Shown here piece by piece: positions 28,433 to 62,836 of a stretch of DNA of 64,000 nt (its first letter is position 1; the number at the start of each line of letters is the position of its first letter). Made by a program: the position numbers and the translations under genes. Location: contig BCJJ01000002.1 in NCBI GenBank assembly GCA_039545355.1, positions 1,079,956 to 1,143,955 of the forward strand, read 5' to 3'. Source of the DNA: Trichosporon coremiiforme (lineage: Eukaryota > Basidiomycota > Tremellomycetes > Trichosporonales > Trichosporonaceae). The notes below the pieces were generated by a model. The model worked only from the letters and a program-made list of their open reading frames with translations, ran no database searches and was not told where the DNA came from.

Positions 28433-29630
28433 TCAAGCCTTGGCCGCCGGGGTCTGCTGCGGCTGCCACATCCACATGCCCCACCCGAGCGCGCCATCGT
28501 CCTTGACGAAGATGTCCTTGATCTCGTCTCCCTTGTCGGCCGCGCCGACCGCAACCGCCAAAGGCAGGAGGTGTTCGGGCGAAGGGTGCGCGGCGCGATA
28601 CAGCGGGTGCCTGAAGAGGTTGACGGTTCCCTCGAGGGGATCGCTGCTCTTCAGCGCGCCCTCGACCGCGTCCAGGAAGGGCTTGCCGTACGCCCCCCGG
28701 CTGCCCGTCATGTAGTCGCGCAGGTTGTGCACCGCCTGTCCCGTGCCCATGATGCCGTACCCTTTGTCCCTCAAGCTCGCAAGCGCCCGCCCGAGCTTGG
28801 CGCTGCTCACGGGGCTGCCGTCGCCGGGTAGAGACACTTGGACGATCGGGATGGACGTGCGGCCGTTGAAAGCGACTTTGAAGGGGACCCAGACGCCGTG
28901 GTCGAGGCCTCGCTTCGTCGTCGCGAACTCGATGTTCGAGTCCTTCAGCGCCGTCTTGACGTCAGACAGCGTCGCGGCGTCTCCCCTGCTCTCGAACGTT
29001 TGCTTGTAGTACTCGGGCGGGAAGCCGTAGAAGTCGTACACGAGCGGGTTGGACTGGTCCACATTCACTGGCGGTCAGCCACAGGTCAGGAGTGGACAGG
29101 GGTGGACATGGCTTGGACATGGCTTGCGTCTCGAGCCATTGTCAACGGCGCCGCAGCGGGCTGCACTCACCGAGGATCTGGTCGTTGTCCGACTCCCAGT
29201 GTGCCGAGACGACGACGAGGCCGCGCGGGTTCTGCTCGGCGACGGCCTGGCCGTACTTCTGCCACGCCTTGTAGGGCGCCGAGTTGGTCTCGAACATGGT
29301 CGGTGGCCCGCCGTGGGACAGGAAGTACACCTGGCCCTTGGGGTAGGTTCCGGAAGTCGCGGAAGCGGACATGGCGCGGGGCTGGAGCGGGGCAAGTTCT
29401 GTGTGTCAGCCAAGCTCGCATTAGCTCGCATTAAGACGCTGCAAGCCGGAGAAACGTGGTGGGACGGGATACTTACTGGTGGCGGAAGGAGCGATGGTGG
29501 AGGGACGCACGAATCCCTTGATCTTGTTCAGGTTCGCGAGTATGACGGCGAGGAGGATGGCGACGACGGCGACGAGGAGTTTCTTGCTGCTGTGTTGTTC
29601 GTGTCCTTGCTGTGTCGGCGAGGACGGCAT
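28433..29630 (-). CDS. LigB-type extradiol ring-cleavage dioxygenase with N-terminal membrane anchor
   Basis: Exons 29477-29630, 29171-29398 and 28433-29067 give 338 aa. The catalytic part is a class III extradiol (DODA-type) dioxygenase: VYFLSHGGPPTMFE, VVVSAHWES, D-HGVW-VP and YRAAHPSPEHLLPL supply the expected metal-binding histidines. Such enzymes cleave catechol rings (for example DOPA) using non-haem iron or zinc. Exon 1 adds about 51 residues with one hydrophobic helix (KKLLVAVVAILLAVILANL) after a short Lys/His/Gln-rich head, as in a signal anchor. An internal ATG in exon 2 (MSASATSG) would give a soluble form of the usual size. A TATA box lies 55 bp upstream of the first ATG. Substrate not known. 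Confidence 0.88.
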
Positions 29631-30055
29631 GAATCGATCGATAGGAAGGAGAAGGAAGTGATCGACGTACGCCGAGGCTCATTATTTATACTGGCCCTGC
29701 TTCCGGCTTCCGACGGATCCCGGAAAAAGGACGGATGATTCATCTGCTTACGTTTCAATGGCAACTCGTCCTCAGCGGGGCCAGTAGTCTGCCATCGGGA
29801 CGCCCGATGCAGCCCAGCCACTCGGCGCTGGCCCGTATGCAAGCAGAGCAGGTCAGCTGTTTGATAACTGGTAACCACGTTTATGCAGTCGCTTCCACGG
29901 ATTTCTCAGCCTTGACTTTCCGTCGGACCGCCTTAGGCAAGGCTCGCCACCAGACAGGATCAGCGGACTTGGCCGGATGCTTCCGCCCTGGGTGGCCAAC
30001 TGGGTGCACCTCGATCGTCATCGTCATCTGTCCACTGACAACCTGGCACGCAATC
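29631..30055. other. Divergent intergenic region, LigB / PhyH
   Basis: 425 bp between two divergent start codons; holds the LigB TATA box. No other gene seen. Confidence 0.6.
29682..29690 (-). promoter_or_regulatory. TATA box of the LigB dioxygenase gene
   Basis: TATAAATAA on the minus strand, about 55 bp before the anchored-form ATG. Its position supports transcription including the anchor exon. Confidence 0.55.
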
Positions 30056-31372
30056 ATGTCACTGACCCCCGAACAGCTCAAGCAGTGGGAGCGCGATGGG
30101 TGAGTCACCAGCTCAAGCGCGTGGCGACGGCGACGTGTAGCTGACCGCAGGTACCTCGCACTGCCCGACTTCCTCTCGGCGGACGAGGTGCAGAAGCTTC
30201 TTGGCCGGACACAAGAGCTGCTCGACGCGTTCGACCCGGCGTCGCACCCACTCACGGCGTTCAAGACGGGACGGCAAGACGGCGAGCACGTCGGGGACGA
30301 CTACTTCTTGACGAGCGGCGACAAGGTGGATACTCATTCTGCTCTCTTCCCCTCACCATCTCCGTCCCCAGCCTCTCTTGCGCCCTTCTACGGACTTGCT
30401 TGGGGAACACGACTCCGAACTGACGCCAGATCCGATACTTTCTCGAGCCCTCAGCCCTGTCCGAGGCGAAGGACGGCGAGCCGCCGAAACTGCTCTACCC
30501 TCCCGCGCGCTCAATCAACAAGATCGGACATGGTCTCCTCGCCGATCCCGTATTTCGCCAAGTCACCACGAGCGACAAGGTGAAGAACGTCGCGAGGAGT
30601 CTGGAGGGAAACATCAAGGACCCGCGCGTGCTCCAGACCATGATCATTTGCAAGCAGCCCCGGATCGGGGGAGTTGGTAAGTCTGCCGCTGACCTGTGGC
30701 TCAACGTCTCCGTCGCGCGGAGAGTTCTGCTGAGCGAGTCCAGCTCCGAAGGATCCAAGCTAGAGCTAATCCCAGTTCCCTGCCACAACGACTCGACGTT
30801 CCTGTACACTGACCCACCGAGCGCGATCGGGTGCTGGATTGCGCTCGAGGACTGTACGCCCGAGAACGGCTGCCTCGTGAGTCCCGCAGTCCCGCTTCGT
30901 CGTCCAGCTAGTTCACCGGTATTTTGCAGCTGACATCAGTCCTTCCTCCCCGGATCACACAAGCAGGCAAAGGTGCACTCGCGCTTTGTCCGCTCTGCAG
31001 GCGGTGGGACCGAGTTTGAGCCCGTCCCCGGCGTCGAGAAGGGGGAAGAGGATTGGGACAAGATGGAGGGGTGGAAGCAAGTGCCCGTCAAGGCGGGAAC
31101 GGCGGTGCTGATTCATGGTGAGTGCGAGAGCGGCGCAGCGCAGCGAGCCAAGTCAACGGCGCCGGCGCCCCAGTAGGACGCACAGCTGAGAATCGACTGG
31201 GAGGTCATAGCTGACGCCAGGATCCGTCATGCACCGCTCGCCGCCGAACCCGAGCGAGAAAACGCGCATCATCTACACGTTCCACATGATTGACGGCGCC
31301 GAGGGAATCACGTACGACGAGAAGAACTGGCTTCAGCCGGGACCGGAGGGGTTTCACGCTCTGCTGGCGTAG
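30056..31372 (+). CDS. Phytanoyl-CoA dioxygenase (PhyH) family protein
   Basis: Exons 30056-30099, 30151-30325, 30430-30676, 30776-30876, 30940-31117 and 31221-31372 give 298 aa. It belongs to the Fe(II)/2-oxoglutarate-dependent PhyH family: the metal motif HxD is in VPCHNDSTF, the distal His and the 2-oxoglutarate-binding Arg are in MHRSPPNPSEKTR, and ENGCLSFLPGSHK is the usual 'C/P-GSH' turn. Length and motifs resemble PHYHD1-like proteins more than peroxisomal phytanoyl-CoA hydroxylase. Substrate unknown. The second intron has a weak donor (GTGGAT). It is convergent with MET3, 223 bp between stops. Confidence 0.9.
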
Positions 31373-31595
31373 AGCGGCAACTTGATGTAACTGACAGTGT
31401 ACTTGAGCGCTTCGGTGTGCAATTGTCAGTCAGTCCACTGCGGCGTTGTTTTCCAGACGCCGCTTTCGTGCTCTCCGAGCGCTGCAGAGATTGAAAACGC
31501 TCTCGCGTTTCGCGCTCGAGCTATGTGTATGCCTACTACTATACATTATGCGTTGAACGCGCAAAGTCTAAGAATTCAGAGCTAAATTAAGTGAT

Positions 31596-33602
<2,007 letters not shown>

Positions 33603-33827
33603 TTAGAGAAGAACGATTCCCAAGCAGTGATTCAGTACATATAGCGGCGACTCTCCATGCACTGGAGTCTGCAAGCAAGCAGTCTTTCCACACTTTTGCT
33701 CTTTGGGATATTCGTGACGTGCTCGGTGGACGCTGGCGTGCTTGCCTTCGTGCCCGGTCGGGCGGGGCGACCCTTAGCCTTTCTGACTGAAATTCCAGAT
33801 AATCAGAACCATCTCCTGGCTGATTTC

Positions 33828-33833
33828 CACGTG
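33828..33833. promoter_or_regulatory. CACGTG box in the MET3 upstream region
   Basis: Core CACGTG 280 bp upstream of the MET3 ATG. See the pair at 34251-34270. Confidence 0.45.
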
Positions 33834-34250
33834 CGCAGGCTCTCTACATTACTCAGAGCCGCAGGTGCCCTGAACGCCGTGCGACCAGCCCGTGAGCAGC
33901 GGGAGATTACATCGGGTGTAGAGACTTGTGAACAGGTCGGGTCCTGGGTGGTTAATTTTGGCTGGCGGTAGCGACCCTGGTCTTTCCGCCTTGGGGCCGC
34001 CGGCCAACGGCTATGCTGAGGCTGGCTTTGTCACTGCATGCATGCGATGATTCTGCGCTAGAGGGGGGCCGCGTATGCATGCCAGCCTGCATCGGGGGGC
34101 GACAGGCAACGGGCAGGCGAGGCTGCGAGGCTCTCTGGTTTGGCGGCTCCGTCGGTCAAATATGGTGCAGGATCACGCCATCGTCTTGTTTGCCACGGAC
34201 GTCCCTGGCACTCAGCCCACCAGGGTGAGAGATAGGCGATATGATAAAGG

Positions 34251-34270
34251 TCACGTGACGTGTCCACGTG
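34251..34270. promoter_or_regulatory. Paired CACGTG boxes upstream of MET3
   Basis: TCACGTGA (34251-34258) and CACGTG (34265-34270) lie 13 bp apart, about 700 bp upstream of MET3. TCACGTGA is the yeast Cbf1 site used with Met4 to activate sulfur genes. No other gene start is near, so MET3 is the likely target; function is inferred. Confidence 0.5.
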
Positions 34271-36029
34271 CGGGATTTGTCACTTGGCAAGCTCAACTGG
34301 GATGACGTTTCAGCCGACCAGTCGACGCGTTTGGGAATTGTCGGAACGACAGTCTACGGTGGAGCTATGGTCAAATGGGCTCAATAGGCTTCGGGCCAGC
34401 CTCTTGATCCAGAATCAGACCGACCGAGCACGACTGGACGACGCGCTGCACCCGACCCAAGGCGGGGCGAGCCATCCCCCCTTCCCCCGCCCCCAGGTCG
34501 TGCGCCAGTGGGTCACTGGAGCAACGGAGGGCGGGGCAACGGGTAGTCACCCCTACCCCGCCTTACGCTAGTATCTGGAATCGGGTGCAAGTTCAAGCCC
34601 TGCGTCATCCTTGTCAGCTCGACCGGTTCACGAATGCTGGAGCCTCTCGGCACCTCCCAGGCGACTGGTACTGATAAGGTTGGGTCGTGCTCCACGGCTA
34701 CACAGTTTTCCTCAATCTGTGCTCGTTTCAGGAGTCGGTGAACGGCAATGGCTTGTGCTTGCTACTTTTGTCCGTCTGTGGTCATTCCGGTCGTGCGTCG
34801 TTGGTGTGTCGTCGGCGAGGTGATGGTGCTTCTTGCTAGCATGTCTGGCGTCATTGTCTTGGCAAGTGGGATGGAACGGGGGAAGAGGCACGTACGAGCG
34901 TCAAGAAAGAGGTCAATCACTGATCACTGACGCATGGACGCACCGAAGTTCTGACGTTCTGACGGGCGCTGACGATTTCTGGCGAATCTGAGTCGCCAGA
35001 GGTCTGTGCGGTCAGGCGTGCAACCAGGCGAGGGTGCACTGGGAGTGCCTTCTGCTCATCAATTCGAGCTTTTCGGCCAGAATTCGAGAGTGAGCGGAGC
35101 CGACCGACGTTTGAGATAGGAAGATAGGAAACATGGGTGCCGCCACGATGAAACGCAGCGCACAGCGACGAAACAAGGCGACACTGTGTTCCTGTCGTCC
35201 TCTCATTCGGGCATGAGGACCATCCTCTAGGGAGTGCCGCTGCCAAACAATGGGCACGGGGACAGTCGATGATGAAGGATTGCAAGAGACGTGCCAAGGA
35301 TGGTGACTTGGTCCACTGCTACGCCTACCTGGCGCCACAGGCACATTATCTCCCCGTATCCTGTGGCCTCGCCCACTCGTCCGACTGGCTGAGTGGCAGT
35401 CAGTTCATGTTCAGAGTAATGTGCAGAGGCTATCGCGTTGCTAGATTTGAAGATTCCCATGGTTGCTGAGCCCGAACCATCACGGCACAGCTGATACGCA
35501 TAGGCGACACCGATGCGGCGGAGGCGTCCCCGACAGCGACTTTCCGTGACCTTCTACCTCGTCTTTTTCCTGACGTTCTCGGCAGCAGAGCTGGTGGAGG
35601 TAGACATGGGACCTCGCCTTGGCATTTCCTTCTGCCCGCATGCGACTAACAGTGTCGGCCCAGACAATCGGTCCCGCAGCTTCCCATCCGCAGACTGACG
35701 CCTTGTGATTCGTCCCGAAGCTCATTCTGCAGGTGGGATAATCACCGATTGCGGGCAAGATAAGACTACTCTTCGGCCGAAGCTCCCCCTGAAGTCAGTC
35801 ACGGGGGCGGTCCACGGGGCATGTGAGGGCCGTTACTTCCCTCGCTTGGACGCATTCCATGCGGAGGATCTATGCCAAGCGCGGAGAGCTGACCGAATGT
35901 CGTTTGTACGCTGGATCCGCTGTCTTGGCACCAAAGTTATGCGCTTGCACTAGCGCGGTGATGAACTCATCCAAGCGATTGCTGAGCAATGAGATGAGAG
36001 CCGGTGGAGACTGCGGATGTGCGATGCGC

Positions 36030-36927: not shown

Positions 36928-37860
36928 TTAGGCGCCCTCCTGGCCGGTCTTGCGGGAGAGGATCTCGATCCAGTATCCGTCCGGGTCGTAGATGAACGCG
37001 ATGTGCTGGGGTCAGCTGGAGTGCGACCGACATAGCTTGAGAGACCGAGCGAGGAAAGCCTGGCTTGGTAGACCCAGCGAGGAAGACCACCAGTCTGGCA
37101 GCCCTCGCTCCGCTCCGTCTGCTACTCACGCGCATGCGGCCCTCCTCGGGGCGCTTCTTGAACTTGACGCCGAGCTCGTCGAAGCGCTTGCAGGCGGCGT
37201 GCAGGTCGTCGACGGCGATGCAGATGTGGCCAAAGCCGCGGCCAGGCTCATCATTACCGCTGGCGTAGCCCTTGAAGTTGGGGTCGTTCTCTGCATCGTC
37301 AGTCGCGGTTCACCTGTTCCCACATGTCATGTCATGCTGGGAGCTCCCCCTGTCCACTGTTCCTAACATTCCGCAGCGACTGGCCACCCTGACCACCGTG
37401 CAACGTCATGCACCAGCGAGGAAGAATCACTCACCAGTGCCCCAGTTGTGGCACAGCTCGAGGACGCCCTCGCGGTTGGTAAAGCTGTCACCCTTCTCCT
37501 CCTTGGACGCGTTGGCCTTGTCGCCGAATCCGGAGGGGTAGCCGAGGAAGTAGTTGGTGAAGTCGCCTCCGTCCGACTTGCGGAAGCACTGACGTCAGAG
37601 CTGCCTCTGGGTTGCACTCACCTCCATGCCGAGGACCTCCTCGTAGAACTGGCGTCAGCTTGACAGTACCGTGCAAAGCTTACCTTCAAGGACGCCTTGG
37701 GGTCCTTAATGCGGAACTGGGGTTAGCTGGGGCCAAGACTGGTGGGCAGCGATGTGAGAAAGGCGCTGGGCTCACCCTGACGTCAGCTCCAGAAACAAAG
37801 ACAAGCTTACATGGTGTGGTTGAAGATGTAGGTCTTGGGGTCGGACTTGATGGTGGACAT
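36928..37860 (-). CDS. GLO1: Glyoxalase I (lactoylglutathione lyase)
   Basis: Exons 37811-37860 (50 nt), 37776 (1 nt), 37684-37716 (33 nt), 37622-37648 (27 nt), 37435-37588, 37130-37290 and 36928-37005 give 167 aa. Family motifs: [18 protein letters not shown] with the first metal His, [23 protein letters not shown] and GYWIEIL with the metal Glu. The enzyme converts the methylglyoxal-glutathione hemithioacetal to lactoylglutathione in the cytosol. The Met17 codon is split AT|G|: without the single G at 37776 the frame is lost right before the conserved FRIKDPK. Flanking introns are 34 nt (GTAAGC...GACGTCAG) and 59 nt (GTGAGC...CCCCAG). The stop is 108 bp from the end of the ferric-reductase relic, convergent. 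Confidence 0.92.
37776..37776 (-). other. Single-nucleotide exon of GLO1
   Basis: On the minus strand the sequence reads ...GCTGACGTCAG, G, GTGAGCCC...: a complete acceptor with branch point, one G, and a complete donor. This G is the third base of the Met17 codon and is the only way I found to join exon 1 to the FRIKDPK exon in frame. Confidence 0.8.
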
Positions 37861-38223
37861 GGCGGGCGAGGTGGTGCTGAGGTGTCGGGCGGTAGTGGTG
37901 AGAAGAGAGGGGAGGCGTCTGATGGAAGACATTCAGGTTGCAAGAGTGCGGTGAGTTGCGCGCTCCCACATGTGCTGTCAGGTTGTTGGGCAGCTGCTCA
38001 CCCTGGCGAGCCTGGCGCGGCATTGGCGCCGGAAAGCGGGCCGGCGGCATCCACCTTAAGCGGTCCCCCCTTCCGAGATTCCGGCAGCCACTGACCTCAC
38101 TTGCGCAACCAGACGTCATGTATGCATTGCTCTATCGTCACTATCGTCACGTTCTATGGACAGGCTAGCTCTATGGTGGTTCGGATTATAGGTTCGTCAT
38201 ATGCATACTGACATTCCAGATCG

Positions 38224-46592: not shown

Positions 46593-48203
46593 ATGACAAC
46601 CACGGCCACGATGACGGCGCCGGTGCTCTCGCCCGACGTCGACCTCGAGCTCATGAACATGGACACGGTCGTGTCGCGCGAAGCGGGCGAGAGCGATCCC
46701 CTCCTGCTTCGGCAGAAGGTGAAGAGCGCGGCCGAGATCGACGGCCTCCGCAAGCGCAAGGCGGCCAAGGTCGCTAGCTTCTACGAGAACCAGAACGAAC
46801 ACATCGACAACCTCCTCAAACCCATGGACGTACATACTGCCGAGGCACGAGACGCGGGCGAGGCGGCCGCGCTGAAAGTCAAGATCGCCGTCAACGTCAG
46901 CTTTGCGGCGAACATCTGCCTCGCGGCGATTCAGCTGTACGCGGCTATCTCCTCCATGTCGCTGGCTCTGTTCGCGAGCTGTGTGGACGCAGGTGAGTGA
47001 AGCTAGGCGGGCATCTGCAGCCGCAATGTTCTCACTGGACAGGAAAGCTGACGACGCAGTGTGTAAGTTGCAATGCCTGCGAACGTTCCAACTGAACCTA
47101 TAGTCGACCCATTCGCGAACCTGATCCTGTGGAGCGCGCATCGCGCCTCGAAGCGCGCGAACGAGAAGAAATGGCCCGCTAGAGGCTCCCGTTTCGAGAC
47201 CAGTGAGCTTGACAGAGGTGGCATAGCTGACGCGCAGTGTACGTGTCCTTCCCTCCCCCGGCGACCTTGCTGCCATTGAGTAGTTCAGATCGCCGCCCAG
47301 TCAGGCGAACTCGGTGGCTGCGACAATAGCTGACATCAGTGGCAACATCGTGTTTGGCTTCATCATGGGCACGGTCAACGTGATTCTTGTGGTGAGTCGA
47401 GGTCTTCCTCTAGCTTGAGTCAGGGCGGACTTGTTGCAGGAGACAGTTTGGAGCATTTGATCTTGTAGCTAACTCCAGGTGCAATCGCTCCAGGAGCTGA
47501 TCACGCACGACGGCAGCGACACGAAGGCGTTCCACCTCGTCCCGCTCGTATGCGTGTGTGTGGCGTGGGGTGAGTATATCTCCACACCCGGATACCTTCA
47601 GCTGGACGAACGTCGAGGACCAAGCTGACTTGACAGTCGTCAAGTTCCTCCTGTTCCTGTATTGCTACGCGATCCGCTCCTCCAGTTCCCAAGTCCAAGT
47701 CCTCTGGGAAGACCACCGCAACGACCTGTTCACGAACGGCTTCAGTATCCTCTCAAACGCTGGCGGCGCAAAGTTGAGGTGGTGGATCGACCCCGTCGGC
47801 GCCATGGTGCTCGCGATTGTCGTGATTGGACTCTGGGCACGCACGGTGTACGAGCAGTTCACCTTCTTAGCCGGTATTGCTGCGCCGCGCGAGTTCGTGT
47901 CCATGGTTACGTACAAGTCCATGACGTTCAGCGAGGAGATCAAGCAGGTCGACACGGTGCGCGTGTATCACAGCGGGCCGGACTATGTCGTCGAGGTCGA
48001 CATTGTCCTGTGAGTGACCGTTAGCTAACGCGACACCTTGTACCAGCTAACATCCCAGTGACCCCGAGATGCCGTTATGGAAGGCGCACGATATCTCGCA
48101 GGACCTCCAGGACCAGATCGAGGCGCTGCCAAACGTCGACAGGTGCTTCGTGCATGTCGACCATGAGGTGGACCACAAGCCGGAGCATCGCAAGAAGCAG
48201 TAG
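46593..48203 (+). CDS. Cation diffusion facilitator, Mn2+-type
   Basis: Eight exons: 46593-46992, 47060-47062 (3 nt), 47104-47202, 47238 (1 nt), 47340-47391, 47479-47569, 47637-48009 and 48059-48203, giving 387 aa. A polar N-terminal region of about 90 residues precedes six membrane helices. The metal sites are DxxxD in helix 2 (D132-AVF-D136) and in helix 5 (D241-HRN-D245), the pattern of Mn-transporting CDFs. The cytosolic C-terminal domain ends DRCFVHVDHEVDHKPEH. It probably loads Mn2+ (or Fe2+) into an organelle by proton exchange. The 3-nt exon supplies the Phe that makes DxxxD; the 1-nt exon completes the Ile codon of ETIGNIVFGF. Start ATGACAACC at 46593; 46611 is an alternative. Confidence 0.9.
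47060..47062 (+). other. Three-nucleotide exon (TGT) of the CDF gene
   Basis: GCTGACGACGCAG, TGT, GTAAGT: acceptor with branch point, three bases, donor. Included, the mRNA reads GAC GCA GTG TTC GAC (D-A-V-F-D); skipped, it stays in frame but reads D-A-V-D, losing the DxxxD metal motif. Confidence 0.8.
47238..47238 (+). other. Single-nucleotide exon (T) of the CDF gene
   Basis: TAGCTGACGCGCAG, T, GTACGT: complete acceptor, one T, donor. The Ile168 codon is then A|T|T, from three exons. Without it the following GNIVFGFIMG segment is out of frame. Confidence 0.8.
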
Positions 48204-61864: not shown

Positions 61865-62836
61865 ATGGTAAGCCCGACCGTCCGCCCCGAAAGCTGACAA
61901 GCAGGACAGGATAACTCAGGTGCGTTCTCGAGCTGGGTGCCTTCATCACCACATACTCTCCTCAAGTCCTTGCAGCATGCTGGAGAACATCGCGAAGCGA
62001 GGAACATTCTTGAATTATAGTCGAAAAACGCAGGAGCAGCTGAAAATGAACTCGGGTGTTAGCTGACATACAGCTGCAAGATGCCATATTAGATGTGAGC
62101 TCATCAATCACCTCGAAGCTGACAGCAGCTTCTGACGATCACGTCCGCGTCCATCGAGTACATCACGCACCGCACGCAGTTCGAGCAGACGTCGGCTGCG
62201 ATCCCGACCACGCTGACGACGGCGCGCGCGGCCAGGCGGAAAGAGTACAGGAGTGAGTGTTGCTCAACTTCCCTCTGTCTTTGCTACAGCTGCTTGCATC
62301 ACTTAGCCAGCTGGCCCTTCGTCTCGGCCGCTGTTCTTGGTCAACCTTGCTTTCGCTGCTTCAGCGTCTGCGTGTCTCTGCTGAGGGGCAGCTCCGTCCT
62401 CGACCAGCTGTTGGAGCGCCGGTACAGCTGAACCTTACCCAAGTTCCTTCCTCCGCTTCTTCTGGCTAGGAGTTCCGTCCCGCGCCTTCCAGCTTAATGG
62501 GTCTCGCTCATCAGCTGACCTCCAGCCGCGATCGAAACCTTTGTCGCGGACATAGTGCGCCGCGCAAAGGACGTCGAGACGCTGATCGCCGCTCTCCCGA
62601 GCAAGAACGACAGTGCCGGTCGGGTAAGTTGACGGGCCCTTGCGCTTGACTGACATCAGGCTGCGCGCCTGACCGAGCTACAGGCCGAGATGGCGCAGGC
62701 GAACGCCGAGTACAAGGACGCGCTCTCCGAGGCGGAGGCGCTGCTCGGCGAGCTCCGGGATACGCTCAAGGTCACGCTCGGCGACGGGACGGAGCGTAAC
62801 GTGCCGAGTCTGAAGAACGCCGTTGCTGCCATGTAG
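61865..62836 (+). CDS. MED21: Mediator subunit 21
   Basis: Exons (coding) 61865-61867 (ATG only), 61905-61919 (15 nt), 62074-62094 (21 nt), 62126 or 62129-62252, 62526-62623 and 62660-62836 give 145-146 aa. The spliced start MDRITQLQDAILD is the Med21/Srb7 signature; it is followed by SIEYITHRTQFEQ and a C-terminal coiled coil (ARLTELQAEMAQANAEYKDA). Med21 pairs with Med7 in the Mediator middle module. The CAGCAG acceptor at 62123-62128 allows an extra Gln (LDQLL), as in the yeast protein. The 273-nt intron after 62252 is long for this genome and could hide another small exon; the frame is continuous without it. The stop is 133 bp from that of the SET gene. Confidence 0.88.

Follow-up and report, generated by a model that had tools for sequence, protein, structure and literature searches.

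The window analyzed here is a 64,000-nt stretch of a 42.04-Mb genome assembled in 134 contigs (C2:1079956-1143955, where C2 is the contig carrying the window). On its minus strand lies a gene for glyoxalase I (lactoylglutathione lyase; GLO1), whose product matches the TIGR00068 equivalog at 177 bits against a cut-off of 120 and PF00903 at 97.4 against a cut-off of 20.6. We read the start of this gene as split around a putative exon of one nucleotide:

37811..37860, minus strand, GLO1 coding exon 1; 50 nt when translation starts at ATG 37860, ending ..NHT-AT
37777..37810, minus strand, GLO1 intron 1; 34 nt, GTAAGC...CTGACGTCAG, among the shortest of the genome's modal size class
37776..37776, minus strand, putative GLO1 single-nucleotide exon; G, last position of the Met codon ATG
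37717..37775, minus strand, GLO1 intron 2; 59 nt, GTGAGC...CTAACCCCAG
37684..37716, minus strand, GLO1 exon 3; 33 nt, carries FRIKDPK
37622..37648, minus strand, GLO1 exon 4; 27 nt
37435..37588, minus strand, GLO1 exon 5; 154 nt, position read from the sequence
37130..37290, minus strand, GLO1 exon 6; 161 nt, position read from the sequence
36928..37005, minus strand, GLO1 exon 7; 78 nt including the stop

The last bases of exon 1 are ..CACCAT (37811), and the following conserved exon opens TTCCGC at 37716. Joining the two directly shifts the frame, leaving the message exactly one base short. These boundaries, their coordinates and the frameshift were already given in an initial annotation of the window, and rereading the sequence returned the same values. 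On the minus strand the region reads ..AACCACACCAT (37811) / GTAAGC...CTGACGTCAG (37777) / G (37776) / GTGAGC...CTAACCCCAG (37717) / TTCCGCATTAAG, so that G37776 is flanked by what look like two complete introns of 34 and 59 nt, each with a 5' splice site, a CTRAC branch site and a YAG acceptor. Exactly one base separates the AG of the first from the GT of the second. Both introns are of viable length, and their scores lie within the range of the training introns described below. A recursive (0-nt) splice site at 37776 was considered and rejected, as the AG does not stand directly before the GT but has one G between.

Inclusion of G37776 restores the frame and completes ATG, a Met conserved in the family, joining the residue two positions beyond the first-strand His to the FRIKDPK exon. 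The initial annotation called this residue Met17; the codon is as claimed, and the number holds when counting starts at the ATG at 37860, the same residue being Met41 from an in-frame ATG at 37932. The stretch between the two starts (37932-37861, minus strand) would add 24 residues to GLO1 and may encode a mitochondrial presequence, the gene then having two start sites.

The Met aligns to the QTM of human GLO1, in which Gln33, at the place of the first-strand His, is presumably a metal ligand. Of 1,574 relatives found, 120 were compared. Among these matches, 95 of 120 carry H/Q-T-[MCLI]-x-R, 15 differ or escaped the pattern (six of them reading HSM), and the models of the other 10 begin at this very Met, which suggests that an intron near the site is old. 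The other Tremellomycete models we inspected read NHTM[FL]R with no visible trouble, save that of Tremella mesenterica, which starts at the Met. There was no T. asahii GLO1 model among these 120 matches, and looking for a fused T. asahii model among candidates of 538-1711 aa gave 19 matches, none from Trichosporon. The evidence for the candidate GLO1 exon is thus confined to the two gene copies described here.

The second copy lies on contig C4. In and around the window, 109,341 of 124,045 bases align to C4; this part of the genome therefore occurs in two copies, for which allodiploidy is the simplest explanation. The duplicated genome is probably a hybrid; hybrid Trichosporon genomes have been described (PMC6642101), and a size of 42.35 Mb is tabulated for T. 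coremiiforme (PMC7026411, Table 1). A segment of ~6.6 kb (window ~28433-35009) is inverted between the homeologs. The C4 copy of GLO1 retains CAT / GTAAGC (34) GAGCTGACGTCAG / G / GT (55), a layout of 34 nt, G and 55 nt against 34, 1 and 59 in C2, its second intron reading GTACGC...CTAACACGCAG. In the alignment of the two copies GAGCTGACGTCAGGGT is identical while the intron interiors have diverged, and the candidate exon is conserved in this independent copy. The spliced proteins agree at 162 of 167 residues, and the differences fall at the three codon positions as 2, 4 and 24, which fits purifying selection on GLO1. Intron 5 (37291-37434, minus strand) also holds an internal block kept in both homeologs, GCTGCGGAATGT...GTGGAC.GGGGGAG, which by eye loosely resembles sequence near 38060-38090, upstream of the gene. 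Since conserved blocks occur inside intron 5 as well, conservation alone is no proof of an exon, and the case for a putative exon at G37776 rests on the frame together with the splice signals.

We enumerated splice models in both copies, allowing GT or GC donors, AG acceptors and introns of at least 28 nt, with the start fixed at the ATG at 37860. Models were scored with a splice- and branch-site model built from 70 intron sequences (35 pairs) of other genes, taken from the homeolog alignment and required to contain CTRAC and YAG; they derive from homeolog comparison rather than RNA, and some of the longer ones may be wrong. GLO1 was kept out of the training set and the introns of the CDF gene discussed below were included, making the CDF scores mildly circular. 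Among the training introns, 27 of 70 were at most 40 nt long, and the 34 nt of GLO1 intron 1 equals their minimum. In C2 we found no one-intron GT/GC-AG solution that was in frame and stop-free, and nine two-intron solutions, the best of which was the single-nucleotide exon (26.2 for its weaker intron). C4 gave two one-intron and 10 two-intron solutions, and the single-nucleotide exon again ranked best (24.5). The acceptor-G-donor arrangement proposed in the initial annotation was thereby borne out. Two donors are modest, falling in the lowest quarter of training donors (25% quantile 8.1): the second donor in C4, GTACGC, at 6.4, and the donor of exon 1, at 6.9 in C2 as well as C4.

Such an arrangement exceeds what chance would produce. 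Dinucleotide shuffles of each GLO1 interval, which kept the first 6 and last 14 bases and took their thresholds from the weaker copy (acceptor >19.2, donor >6.3), matched its single-nucleotide exon in 0 of 20,000 trials in either copy, and an equally good exon of any length in the series 1, 4, ... 28 nt appeared in 0 of 5,000. Among 32 introns 67 nt or longer (counting both copies, GLO1 included), only the two of GLO1 held such a 1-nt exon, and across both strands of 154 kb there were three such sites, namely the two GLO1 copies and one exon in the CDF gene. The pattern CTGACNNCAGNGTRAG matched seven times genome-wide against two in a reversed control. Of the six matches outside GLO1, three had no scoring donor upstream and three had one, the latter resembling, by eye, ordinary exons that happen to begin NGTGAG; this motif by itself is therefore no detector of 1-nt exons. 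In the window, neither Rfam at its gathering thresholds nor ARAGORN in its bacterial setting gave a match.

A scan of the homeolog alignment for conserved exons of 1-21 nt returned three matches: G37776, T47238 and TGT at 47060-47062. When the scan was widened to 1-30 nt (109 kb aligned, 110 conserved acceptor-like sites), the same three small exons were recovered, 1-nt exons appeared at two places only, both inside the window, and there were no conserved exons of 2 or 4-9 nt. The widened scan also gave eight entries of 10-27 nt, two of them at a common site. In another gene, 61905-61919 on the plus strand is a candidate micro-exon, conserved and either 10 or 15 nt long, with two acceptors in register. 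T47238 and TGT fall within one gene for a CDF (cation efflux) metal transporter (PF01545, ~46593-48203), where the relevant features are as follows:

47060..47062, plus strand, candidate CDF 3-nt exon TGT; part of Val-Phe in DAVFDP
47203..47237, plus strand, CDF intron before the T exon; 35 nt (35 in C4)
47238..47238, plus strand, candidate CDF single-nucleotide exon; T, second position of the Ile codon within SRFET-I-GNIV
47239..47339, plus strand, CDF intron after the T exon; 101 nt (107 in C4)

Inclusion of T47238 yields ACC-A-T-T-GGC, read as T-I-G. This model scored best in both copies (28.4 in C2 and 25.1 in C4; next 20.6 and 22.3). Unlike the GLO1 site, the CDF site allows one-intron in-frame models (46 in C2 and 51 in C4), and the best four of these per copy all cause a deletion or insertion within conserved protein sequence. 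A CDF protein of T. asahii CBS 2479 is identical to the C2 product at 155 of 158 residues and to the C4 product at 157 of 158, over the part compared.

We surveyed the CDF site in 120 of 1,963 matches. Sorted by their recorded names, these comprised 37 named Tremellomycete models, six entries with no species label, which were set apart and are all intact, and 77 others, which themselves include label-less entries, one of which (P0172) proved Tremellomycete-like. Among these matches, 34 of the 37 named Tremellomycete models are disrupted at the Ile and three are intact; by alignment the indel falls on the Ile itself in 29 of 37, and the Phe supplied by the 3-nt exon is exactly missing in 27. 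Disruption per core residue averaged 0.51 of the 37 models, against 29 at Ile168 and 28 at Phe135. The 77 other matches had no indel at the 1-nt site, where 72 fit the pattern and five are substituted before the Ile, and no deletion at the 3-nt site, where 60 fit the pattern and 17 are substituted, one with Ser for Phe.

The disrupted models break in several ways. Eight of the 34 come from the Cryptococcus gattii group, whose models break as SRFETSDGNI. The Vanrija pseudolonga model reads into the start of the intron (SRFETSEPMQGP...), and that of T. asahii starts inside the intron's end (MSKADLSGNIVF). Eleven of the 34 (..FET[IM]YGSI, FETIFASI, FETIFANI) lose 12 nt, which would fit either skipped exons of 1 and 11 nt or one exon of 12 nt, so that those 11 are no evidence by themselves. 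The string SRFET[IM]YGS in P0134, P0143-P0146, P0148, P0150, P0151 and P0153 (genera Tremella, Kwoniella, Cryptococcus and Saitozyma) suggests a further exon of 11 (or 12) nt, at or after the 1-nt exon. The intact models belong to Vanrija humicola, Cutaneotrichosporon cavernicola and Cryptococcus deuterogattii R265 (SRFETIGNII); the R265 annotation used RNA-seq mapped with a micro-exon search (PMC8022950). Seven environmental ORFs cross the region uninterrupted, on contigs 951-3426 bases long, and hence probably represent cDNA; all seven keep both Ile and Phe. Their best matches are Tremellomycetes, one being 96.8% identical to C. deuterogattii R265, in a placement that used six non-Tremellomycete references and is least clear for P0157 and P0161. 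Taken as a whole, the survey suggests, although it does not prove, an old single-nucleotide exon with a neighbouring 3-nt exon in Tremellomycete CDF genes.

The proposed GLO1 exon has to be weighed against other readings. One is a single 93-nt non-canonical intron, TAAGCT..CCCCAG (TA-AG) or GTAAGC..CCCCA (GT-CA). Because the exon is a G and the introns start with G, the string exon 1-G-exon 3 is the same as exon 1 plus the first intron base plus exon 3, and mature mRNA reads cannot separate the two models. A CACCATG/TTCCGC read would span a 93-nt gap with no mismatch, and likewise 89 nt in C4, so the expectation of the initial annotation that mappers would show a false 1-nt insertion or mismatch fails, as does its choice of junction cDNA to decide the matter. 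We nonetheless consider such an intron unlikely: it would need a non-canonical site in both homeologs and would leave two conserved internal splice sites and a branch site unexplained. The equivalent at the CDF site, a non-canonical intron shifted by one base, would produce AGT (Ser), against the Ile of all seven uninterrupted environmental ORFs, and the 77 other matches there fit [IVL]GN or carry TIGN/VIGN. At CDF, unlike GLO1, the protein therefore tells the two models apart. By the same reasoning any single-nucleotide exon G is ambiguous in mature mRNA, and T, A or C exons such as that of CDF make better proof.

Other in-frame splice choices, involving a longer micro-exon, a GC donor or a different N-terminus, are very unlikely. 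Candidates do exist, including exons of 4 and 10 nt with GC donors in C2 (13.9), the better one-intron model in C4 (10.0), which places eight residues where the Met should be, and, as runner-up in both copies, the identical G exon with the exon-1 donor 36 nt upstream (17.4), at the cost of 36 nt of conserved exon 1; all score below the single-nucleotide exon and either gain or lose residues within conserved protein sequence. A single G lost after CAT in the assembly would suffice to explain the frame break, as would a real frameshift in a dying gene, yet the identical break and 1-nt design recur on an independent homeologous contig, which makes sequencing error very unlikely, and the coding differences are mainly at third positions; we give this almost no weight. 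Nor do we find it credible that the conserved block TGACGTCA serves as a DNA element of the bZIP/CRE type instead of as a splice site. CTGACGTCAG is a palindrome, conserved inside the intron, which we take to contain the CRE core, but it also ends GLO1 intron 4 as an ordinary 3' splice site, and a DNA element would not mend the frame; the block could be both. The reading frame, splice signals, branch points, Met conservation and independent homeolog all support a single-nucleotide exon, and on this genomic evidence we conclude that GLO1 of this Trichosporon-like yeast very probably contains a constitutive one at G37776.

If G37776 is an exon, the spliceosome would recognize the two introns by intron definition and excise them sequentially, in either order, with AT-G-TTC as the ligation product. 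With the 3' AG and the next GT one base apart, simultaneous engagement of both introns is unlikely, and they would probably be removed in turn. Scores of the second donor change little when intron 1 is removed (from 9.5 to 8.6 for C2 GLO1, from 6.4 to 5.5 for C4 and from 7.6 to 6.7 for CDF), so either order is plausible. The genome has many introns of 34-38 nt, and no special machinery need be assumed. Omission of the G would frameshift an otherwise ordinary glyoxalase I, and in this reading the base is therefore not regulatory.

Whether single-nucleotide exons are a recurrent feature of Tremellomycetes, with an ancient CDF T exon missed class-wide and new ones such as the GLO1 G still arising, seems to us an evenly balanced question; if they are, new ones may keep arising because introns of 34-38 nt can pack against each other. 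If true, our reading would extend single-nucleotide exons to basidiomycetes, with two in one 64-kb window, and the CDF exon would explain the lost or garbled residue in 34 of 37 Tremellomycete models (Cryptococcus, Kwoniella, Vanrija, Trichosporon and others). We found no basidiomycete nuclear single-nucleotide exon among the papers listed by our searches of the open-access literature; one of those listed concerns micro-exons of Phanerochaete P450 genes (PMC1184071).

Single-nucleotide exons are already known in plants and Fusarium. The initial annotation described them as very rare and reported from plants; the plant reports hold, and the Fusarium CYP621A exon, published in 2026, adds a fungus (PMC12940212). 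Its authors present it as the first such exon in a fungal gene. Like the candidate in GLO1, the CYP621A exon lies in a fungal nuclear gene, is a G in AG-G-GT and completes a conserved motif codon; as here, it is kept in orthologues and missed by gene models, and in principle it is equally ambiguous with a TN-AG intron. It differs in belonging to an ascomycete P450, in its 139-nt interval in F. graminearum and in having its junction backed by RNA reads (PMC12940212). Arabidopsis APC11 likewise has a constitutive 1-nt exon needed for the frame, but in a plant, with A as the exon in a 422-nt interval, and proven by mutating the base (PMC4674806). The placozoan mitochondrial cox1 exon of 1 bp is also one base between two introns, which in that case are group I rather than spliceosomal (PMC5436844). 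The closest parallel to CDF is found in the plant 1-nt micro-exons of APC11 and VPS55, which are deeply conserved and absent from reference annotations, and which were proven by RNA-seq and RT-PCR, whereas the exons proposed here are read from genomic sequence (PMC8831610).
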